DNA of 64,000 nucleotides from positions 1 to 64,000 of the IMG/VR virus record IMGVR_UViG_3300032236_000643; one strand, written 5' to 3'. Made by a program: the position numbers and the translations under genes. Positions 42,016 to 44,267 of this stretch are shown one piece after another; position 1 is the first letter of the stretch, and every line of letters starts with the position of its first letter. The DNA is from a virus. Under the pieces are notes generated by a model. It saw only the letters and a list, made by a program, of their open reading frames with translations. It was not told where the DNA came from and searched no databases.

Positions 42016-42855
42016 CTACATCAATCCACGCTTACGCGCCCAATCAAGAACATGAGCAGCAGCAAGCCGATTAGCACCCCAATGTGGTGCTTTCGCCCAT
42101 GACTTCAAATCCAGCCACAACGACGCGTCCACATCGTCAACAGGTGACGGTGTAGGAGCAGGTGGGGTGGGAACTGGCGTAGGCGCTGGTTTCGTAACAG
42201 GAACAAAAACGGTTACGTCACCTTGTTCGGCCAGTAATCGTTGCAAGGTTGCATACGACATGTAGCCACGACCATTAATACCCCACGATGAGCCCCATGA
42301 GTTAGTGAAACCAACACGACCGTTCGCCGTATCAATCTCATCAAGCACGTACTCGTGACCACCTTGAACCGTTGAACCCGGATCAATCGAAATCTCACCA
42401 TTGGTTGACGGGTTAAAGAACGAGTCATACCAAACCGTTCCAATGATGACTGGCTGATTCGTCAGAGCTTTAAGGCAATCCGTGAACGTGAACGTGTGCT
42501 GATAACCACTAATCAGACCGCGCGACTTCAGCACCTTCGCGATACTTAAACCATCCGATCCAGTGTCATCAGGTGGATATTGTCCTGGTGCGCTGTCAAT
42601 GACAGTTGCTGCGGAATACAAATCAACAGCAGCTGCTTCATCTAGTTTCGTACCAGTGGGAAGTGTTGCGTAGAACGGATCAGTGGACAGGCAGCCGATA
42701 CCAGCATTACCAGTGCACGAGCCAAGGTTGCCTTGGTCAAATACTGGTACTTCACGCTTCCAACGCACAGACGTTACCTGCGTACCTGTCGTGTCGTACG
42801 CGTAGTTGAATGATCGTGGATCGTGGTTAACGTTCCGACCGAGCGTGTACACCAT
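42016..42855 (-). CDS. Papain-like (C1 family) cysteine peptidase
   Basis: 279 residues from ATG 42855, two bases after the upstream stop. Catalytic elements are complete: oxyanion Gln41 and Cys47 in DQGNLGSCTGNA, His167 in GGHEYV and Asn185 in FTNSWGSSWG. That is the papain Gln-Cys-His-Asn series with the typical NSWG turn. Residues ~215-240 form a Pro-rich linker (PAPTPVPTPPAPTPSP). The last ~40 residues (DASLWLDLKSWAKAPHWGAN) may be a small binding domain. There is no signal peptide or propeptide, unlike cellular papains, so activation and export are unclear. It lies in one unit with an FMN-binding surface protein and a lytic transglycosylase-like protein. C1 peptidases are uncommon in phages; it could act on host proteins during lysogeny. 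Confidence 0.88.
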   Translation of the reverse strand: MVYTLGRNVNHDPRSFNYAYDTTGTQVTSVRWKREVPVFDQGNLGSCTGNAGIGCLSTDPFYATLPTGTKLDEAAAVDLYSAATVIDSAPGQYPPDDTGSDGLSIAKVLKSRGLISGYQHTFTFTDCLKALTNQPVIIGTVWYDSFFNPSTNGEISIDPGSTVQGGHEYVLDEIDTANGRVGFTNSWGSSWGINGRGYMSYATLQRLLAEQGDVTVFVPVTKPAPTPVPTPPAPTPSPVDDVDASLWLDLKSWAKAPHWGANRLAAAHVLDWARKRGLM

Positions 42856-42856
42856 T

Positions 42857-43753
42857 TTAGTAACCTGCCATCGTGAGTGCGGATGCGAGTGATTTAGAAA
42901 AACCGGTGGATGTGTATGTCGCACCTGAAATAGCAGCAATGTTTGCTGTGTTACCAACGATGGCCTCGTAGATCATCGTTGGATTGGTCGGATCATTGTT
43001 GAGCCCGGCCATCGTTGCAACGTTGTACTTAAGAATGTTTTTACTTGTGGAGTCCGTAGGTGCAAGCGGCGTCGCAAATGTGATCGCCGTGATCTTGCCG
43101 CCTGTGATCGTTGCTCCAACTTGAACTGAATAGGTTTCGTTCGCATCAGGAATGAAAACTGTTTGCACAGATCCTGCGTACGTTCCGTCAACGACAGTTT
43201 TCTGCGTTACAGACGGTGTAGGAGTGGGCGTGGACGTTACAACAGGTGATGGAGTGGGTGTGACGGTTGCAGCCGGATTAACAACGGCCTTAGCTGTTAC
43301 CTTCGCATTATTCTGCTGGTCCTTAAGAATCGTGGTTGTACACGTGTACTTCCACGATTCACCAACGCTGAGCTGCTTGTCAGAATTCGTATCACCGGTC
43401 TGGAAAACAACATTCGAGCACTTGTCATCCGTCACGTTCACGTTAGTAAACGACGTGTCGGACGAGAGGTTAGAAACCGTATACGAATACGTAATCTTTG
43501 ACCCCGGCGTCACCGTGACGGGTGAAACACTGGTTGTGAGCGACAGTTGGGGCGACCTCGCGTACGCCCAAGTCCCCGCTGAGGCTTCTACCTGAACGGG
43601 AGTGTCCAGATTTGTGTCTGGTGGTAATGGTGCTGACGGATCAGCTAACGCTGAGTGCATTAAGTTGTAGGACAGGAGCGCGCCGAAACCAACAGTCGTA
43701 CCTACTACTGCTGATACGGCGCGCCCCACGTTTGACATACCTTTTCCGCTCAC
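42857..43753 (-). CDS. Exported protein with Ig-like domain and FMN-binding domain
   Basis: 298 residues. GTG 43753 has AAGAAGGG six bases upstream; ATG 43738 is the alternative. The first ~37 residues are a signal peptide (basic start, VSAVVGTTVGFGALLSYN, ALA cleavage site). Residues ~70-160 resemble a DUF11-type surface domain (ITYSYTVSNLSSDTSFTNVN, VGESWKYTCTTT). A Pro/Thr-rich linker (~170-195) follows. The C-terminal ~105 residues are an FMN_bind domain: DGTYAGSVQT, GGKITAITFATPL and SGATYTSTGFSKSL, where Thr281 is the probable site of covalent FMN attachment by a host ApbE enzyme. Such domains move electrons outside the membrane. No redox partner or ApbE is encoded here. Confidence 0.82.
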   Translation of the reverse strand: MSGKGMSNVGRAVSAVVGTTVGFGALLSYNLMHSALADPSAPLPPDTNLDTPVQVEASAGTWAYARSPQLSLTTSVSPVTVTPGSKITYSYTVSNLSSDTSFTNVNVTDDKCSNVVFQTGDTNSDKQLSVGESWKYTCTTTILKDQQNNAKVTAKAVVNPAATVTPTPSPVVTSTPTPTPSVTQKTVVDGTYAGSVQTVFIPDANETYSVQVGATITGGKITAITFATPLAPTDSTSKNILKYNVATMAGLNNDPTNPTMIYEAIVGNTANIAAISGATYTSTGFSKSLASALTMAGY

Positions 43754-43844
43754 GGTGACCCTTCTTAAACGTGTGTTGACGCTTATTATTGTCCCATTAA
43801 GCGGAATCATAACCAATGATGCGCGTTATATTCGAGTGTTTCTC

Positions 43845-44267
43845 TTAAGTTCCGTAGCCACAGTGAGTGCCCCACCACGCCCGTTGCGCATGTTTGTAGT
43901 ACACGTTGTACGCAAATACAGCGACCTGTACTTTGGCTGGGGCGTACATCGCTTTACGGTACTGAGTGCCGATGTGGGCTCGTTGAGCGTGAACACGCCA
44001 TGTTGAGTCAAGGTACTGAAACGCTCCAGACGCGCCTGAGCCGGACCACTGGTTCAGCGCAGTCCATAATCCGGCGTTCCATGATTCATGATGCGCTACG
44101 CACAATCCGAATGTGTGCACCCACTTTGGGTAATGCGACCATACGCTCATCGTTGAATTCCATGAACGCTGCGTTGAAACGGACGTGGCATGAATTGGTG
44201 TATGCGTTGGTGCTTGAACGGGTGAAAGTGTGAGTGTTGCTGCCATAAGTAAGTTTGTGATGAACAT
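43845..44267 (-). CDS. Exported lytic transglycosylase-like (Rpf/SLT-like) protein
   Basis: 140 residues from ATG 44267 after AAGGACTCAA. A signal peptide (FITNLLMAATLTLSPVQA) leads to a lysozyme-like fold: CVAHHESWNAGLW with Glu61 as candidate catalytic acid, then GSGASGAFQYLDSTWRVHA, which matches the 'GAYQfl-STW' element of resuscitation-promoting factors and related transglycosylases. The C-terminal VQVAVFAYNVYYKHAQRAWW completes it. It would cleave glycan strands of peptidoglycan. Expression is probably controlled by the structured leader and terminator just upstream. It could serve lysis, DNA entry or wall remodelling in lysogens. Confidence 0.78.
   Translation of the reverse strand: MFITNLLMAATLTLSPVQAPTHTPIHATSVSTQRSWNSTMSVWSHYPKWVHTFGLCVAHHESWNAGLWTALNQWSGSGASGAFQYLDSTWRVHAQRAHIGTQYRKAMYAPAKVQVAVFAYNVYYKHAQRAWWGTHCGYGT

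Follow-up and report, generated by a model that had tools for sequence, protein, structure and literature searches.

The stretch of DNA analysed here, hereafter the window, comprises bases 1 to 64,000 of the 70,410-base IMG/VR record IMGVR_UViG_3300032236_000643 and, judged from its sequence, is the genome of a temperate, actinophage-type virus (the window phage, G000). It encodes a tyrosine integrase (47171-48286, + strand), an excisionase (46409-46768, - strand, above the TIGR01764 cut-off) that heads a leftward block of genes, a WhiB protein and an endolysin with M15 and peptidoglycan-binding domains (31932-32762, + strand). The closest isolate relatives of its major capsid protein include Arthrobacter and Microbacterium phages; a DUF932-based search returned no closer relatives, and when the major capsid protein served as query for a host, it retrieved two metagenome bins only, labelled Acidobacteria and Bacteroidetes, neither usable as a host. 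Joining of host DNA to the phage by mistake was ruled out because GC content is uniform and the block is flanked on both sides by phage-type genes, namely the excisionase and a gene at 37945-38265 that has homologs in related phages. The record breaks off on the right within a gene for a CbxX-like AAA+ ATPase (L005, 6011-6409, +), which begins after the gene of a 1117-aa protein.

Within the leftward block lie three consecutive, intact open reading frames, as the initial annotation had described, all on the - strand and transcribed in the order TG, FMN, CP: a lysozyme/Rpf-like protein of 140 aa (TG, 43845-44267, ATG start), a 298-aa protein in which an Ig-like domain, a Thr/Pro linker and an FMN_bind domain follow each other (FMN protein, 42857-43753, GTG start), and a papain-like peptidase of 279 aa with a Thr/Pro linker and a C-terminal domain of about 40 residues (CP, 42016-42855, ATG start). 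Only 1 nt separates the FMN stop codon from the CP start codon. The late genes are encoded on the strand opposite to the trio, which is not adjacent to holin and endolysin, the latter being encoded elsewhere on the other strand, again in line with the first description. Directly before TG there is a structured leader (44296-44422, -) that folds better than 200 of 200 shuffled sequences (z -5.55) and ends in a 15-bp terminator-type hairpin (stem 44333-44298); no known riboswitch or other Rfam family was found in it at threshold.

Some further features of these non-coding regions are worth recording. The TG leader can also be read as a 28-codon GTG open reading frame (44418-44333, -) ending just before the terminator stem, with an extended -10 element (TGATACAAT) upstream, both of which may be due to chance. 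Just downstream of CP (41914-41755, -), there is a strong sigma-70-type promoter (TTGACA-18-TATACT, 11/12), after which come a possible leader frame of 23 codons and an intrinsic terminator, in an attenuator-like layout. The lone TG gene of another phage, G001 (L098, 13660-13925, -), also has a strongly structured leader (z -3.5) with a 17-bp terminator-like hairpin; its sequence is not obviously like that of the window leader, and it gave no known riboswitch at threshold.

TG had been described as an exported protein of lysozyme fold, a view that fits its motif and, more weakly, its fold matches, domain scores and export signal. A catalytic-type glutamate (E61, within C-x4-ES) is invariant in the seven-member TG family. 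When a low-confidence model (pLDDT 59) was compared with PDB folds, its four best matches were all Rpf domains (E 0.06-0.36), led by RpfB (probability 0.97, E 0.063). The score against Pfam Transglycosylas (PF06737) is 15.4 bits, below the cut-off of 27, and for this reason TG was not filed as a member of that family. Weak profile links were found to transglycosylase-like stretches within tape-measure-sized proteins, and a pattern scan with the single protein for TG relatives found nothing. By a hydropathy and charge heuristic, the window copy shows a weak signal peptide, and the copies of four FMN-bearing contigs (G030-G033, see below) a clear one. TG is likely a wall-cutting enzyme. As context rather than evidence, an Rpf-like phage gene is plausible: mycobacteriophage infectivity is reported to be modulated by Rpf proteins of the host (PMC12908700), and infection by a Rhodococcus phage to be accompanied by a rise in host rpf genes (PMC10986025).

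For the second gene, both domains proposed initially were recovered. The FMN protein scores 24.2 bits against Pfam FMN_bind (PF04205, cut-off 22) and 27.2 bits in another search, with 8p2a as its best PDB match (E 1.8e-5), and the Ig-like domain matches DUF7507/Ig-like at E 1e-5, just under the cut-off. Its structural model is poor (AlphaFold, pLDDT 47), and a fold search with it gave nothing significant, the FMN domain CbFMN4 (8p2b) ranking fourth at E 0.16. Residues 276-279 (42917-42928, -) read SGAT and fit [S/T]GA[S/T], the site flavinylated by ApbE (PMC8238504); SGAT is invariant across the five aligned phage FMN proteins. The N-terminus resembles a signal peptide in all copies, according to the same heuristic only, and the protein is probably exported. 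Where computable, dN/dS is about 0.12-0.14, which denotes purifying selection.

CP is a predicted peptidase of a known actinophage family. It matches phrog_16701 over the whole domain (E 1.7e-54), and its catalytic residues Q41, C47, H167 and N185 are invariant in 10 related phage proteins; among the loci examined, its C-terminal domain occurs essentially only in such peptidases. Where computable, dN/dS is about 0.14-0.25. The description of CP as a complete papain-like peptidase is borne out by domain and catalytic residues, and its description as exported fails because no signal peptide was detected by the hydropathy and charge heuristic. The family is common, with 54 isolate-phage records and 479 confirmed candidates in IMG/VR. 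In 32 non-redundant loci the neighbours of CP most often match endolysin and holin families, and in annotated Gordonia and Arthrobacter phages CP lies beside lysin A, holin and lysin B, so that the earlier statement that none of the three genes belongs to lysis was wrong for CP. The gene is found outside the lysis cassette in other actinophages, namely Saguaro, Circinus, G012 and G014. In G013 (L099:10955-12111, -) the CP gene overlaps that of a small, holin-looking membrane protein. Two genes downstream of CP in G031, a gene (L202:10521-10946, -) weakly matches permuted papain-like amidases (C92), and G030 has a similar one.

No relatives of the FMN protein were present in 50,697 phage records, and neither tblastn against phages and plasmids nor single-protein pattern scans returned any. 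They first surfaced through a CP-alignment scan and the reading of neighbouring genes, and number five IMG/VR contigs (G029 to G033). All five carry a stand-alone TG-like protein and an endolysin of the window type (41-54% identity); CP is present in four, the fifth (G033) counting as uninformative for CP as it stops within the FMN gene. CP had led to four of the contigs in the first place, and since a scan based on the FMN protein retrieved the same set, the occurrence of CP in four of four informative contigs is not an artefact of the search. The combination, noted at first as unusual, is indeed so, and it recurs. G030-G033 are mutually related, meaning that with the window phage and G029 there are about three independent lineages and not six.

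FMN and CP are adjacent in four of the six phages (the window phage, G030, G031 and G032). In G029 about 3.5 kb lie between them, and holin, endolysin and CP follow directly on one another; in G030-G033 the TG-like gene lies two genes after the endolysin. The relatives have CP, FMN and TG downstream of the endolysin and in the same direction; only in the window phage are the three on the opposite strand, behind the excisionase. The contigs match the window phage strongly in endolysin, CP and FMN protein, and no similarity to it was detected in capsid, portal or terminase, which, together with dN/dS values of about 0.12-0.25, makes the trio look like a selected and exchanged gene set. Among 28 capsid relatives of the window phage, a stand-alone TG occurs only in G001 and G006, CP only in G012-G014 and FMN_bind in none. 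The co-occurrence that the initial annotation proposed to look for in relatives is one-sided: the FMN protein was never met without the other genes, whereas TG stands alone in G001 and G006 and CP in G012-G014, as well as without FMN in many isolates. What is new in the set is the FMN protein, the other two genes being of known actinophage kinds, and a common, poorly understood actinophage peptidase thereby gains a recurring partner gene.

One explanation of this association is that the genes form an accessory lysis set, in which CP and TG would help to degrade the wall at lysis as second-line hydrolases, and the FMN protein, bound to the wall, would be a helper or a passenger with redox activity of secondary importance. 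The prevalence of endolysins and holins around CP, the gene orders of G029 and G030-G033 and the lack of a signal peptide in CP all agree with it. However, in the window phage the trio lies opposite to the late genes in an excisionase-headed block, and a flavin domain is not needed for lysis, yet it is under purifying selection. Such an accessory role is regarded as unlikely, even if it is the most serious of the alternatives.

Still less probable is the idea originally advanced, that of a cargo module, perhaps expressed in the lysogen, acting on the host envelope, for instance by changing the surface or excluding other phages. That the trio acts on the host envelope is likely, and the temperate character of the phage (integrase and excisionase), the trio's own structured leader and the envelope-type proteins fit a lysogenic function; but CP belongs to a lysis-cassette family and has no signal peptide, the genes run downstream of the endolysin and in its direction in the relatives, and no match to a defence family was found. 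A defence role was considered for the trio and rejected, PADLOC giving no hit. Papain-type enzymes need a free thiol, and the adjacency of FMN and CP in four of six phages could mean that electrons carried by the flavoprotein maintain the active-site cysteine of CP in its reduced state beyond the membrane, or that the FMN protein is matured or released through cleavage by CP, a proposal that becomes very improbable when 479 CP relatives are set against five FMN loci, hundreds of CPs doing without the FMN protein.

A different direction is indicated by a link to electron transfer that was absent from the initial reading of the locus, which had otherwise named the FMN_bind domain. Of the five FMN-bearing relatives, four (G030-G033) encode an MsrQ-like membrane reductase with Ferric_reduct (PF01794), FAD and NAD domains, several kb away from the FMN gene; six other phages that were tested have none. 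A pattern scan for this reductase found five viral contigs only, four of them the FMN-bearing ones and the fifth a short fragment. No PF01794 reductase is encoded in the window phage or on the 34-kb fragment of G029, and no ApbE was found in the window phage or in 11 other phage records. Relatives of the phage reductase (31-39% identity) occur on actinobacterial plasmids, in operons encoding, in this order, a ferredoxin reductase family protein, an FMN-binding protein and an FAD:protein FMN transferase, with a VIT-family gene beside the operon in two cases. The phage FMN domain aligns with these plasmid FMN-binding proteins at E-values as low as 1e-16, that of the window copy being 8.5e-14; only the alignment counts here, because the search space consisted of three sequences. 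Between the endolysin and the TG-like gene, G030-G033 (L199, L202-L203, L208, L213) encode a Dps-like ferritin, which suggests an iron or oxidative-stress theme. Within open-licence papers, no phage FMN_bind protein or phage ferric reductase was found, and the main text of PMC8238504 does not mention phages or viruses.

The best reading of these observations, with the chances for and against it about balanced, is that of an exported flavoprotein that extends host-type extracytosolic electron transfer and travels with wall enzymes. The FMN protein would leave the cell by export, its FMN_bind domain would be covalently flavinylated on the SGAT threonine by host ApbE, and its Ig-like domain and Thr/Pro linker would anchor the protein within or across the wall. 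Electrons would reach it from an MsrQ-like ferric reductase, phage-encoded in G030-G033 and the host's own in the present case, and would pass on to an acceptor beyond the membrane, for which Fe(III) or oxidised components of the envelope are the likeliest candidates. Reductase and ApbE are assumed to be supplied by the host of the window phage, as the phage encodes neither. TG and CP would meanwhile act on the wall, CP, devoid of a signal peptide, exiting the cytosol as the endolysin does. In favour of this reading stand the FMN_bind score with the SGAT motif, the homology to the plasmid FMN-binding proteins, the reductase of four relatives and the purifying selection on the FMN protein. Nothing points to a part of TG or CP in electron transfer, which counts against the exported-flavoprotein reading, as do the need to assume host parts, the distance between reductase and FMN genes in the relatives, the lack of the reductase on the G029 fragment and the poor model of the FMN protein.

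Bacteria use extracytosolic flavoproteins to hand electrons on to iron or other acceptors beyond the membrane. That putative members of this kind now turn up in phages, with a domain arrangement that is new and, in four relatives, a phage-encoded reductase, suggests that an infection can rely on extracytosolic redox chemistry. A broader and more tentative proposal is that actinophages may encode a transmembrane electron-export path, made of a ferric reductase and an exported flavoprotein finished by host ApbE, that serves infection. If true, it would amount to a viral system of extracytosolic electron transfer, which would supply iron or keep the envelope, or enzymes within it, reduced. The putative exported flavoprotein, like the partners that recur with it, is new and merits testing.

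Each gene can finally be set against its known counterpart. TG shares with Rpf/Transglycosylas (PF06737) and lytic transglycosylase domains the catalytic-type glutamate and a lysozyme-like layout, and its best fold matches, all weak, are to Rpf domains, but it is short, below the Pfam cut-off and part of a diverged phage family. CP has the whole domain, catalytic residues, linker and C-terminal domain of the phrog_16701 actinophage peptidases, and differs in lying outside a lysis cassette, one base after the FMN gene. The MsrQ-like flavinylated electron-transfer clusters of Actinobacteria combine PF01794, FMN_bind and ApbE (PMC8238504). In comparison, the phage set lacks ApbE, and the reductase is absent from the window phage and not adjacent in the relatives; the FMN protein is phage-encoded and fused to an Ig-like domain and a long linker, with an insertion of about 12 residues in its FMN domain. 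What the two have in common is an FMN_bind domain with SGAT, homologous to the FMN-binding protein of the clusters, and, in four relatives, an NAD-linked reductase.
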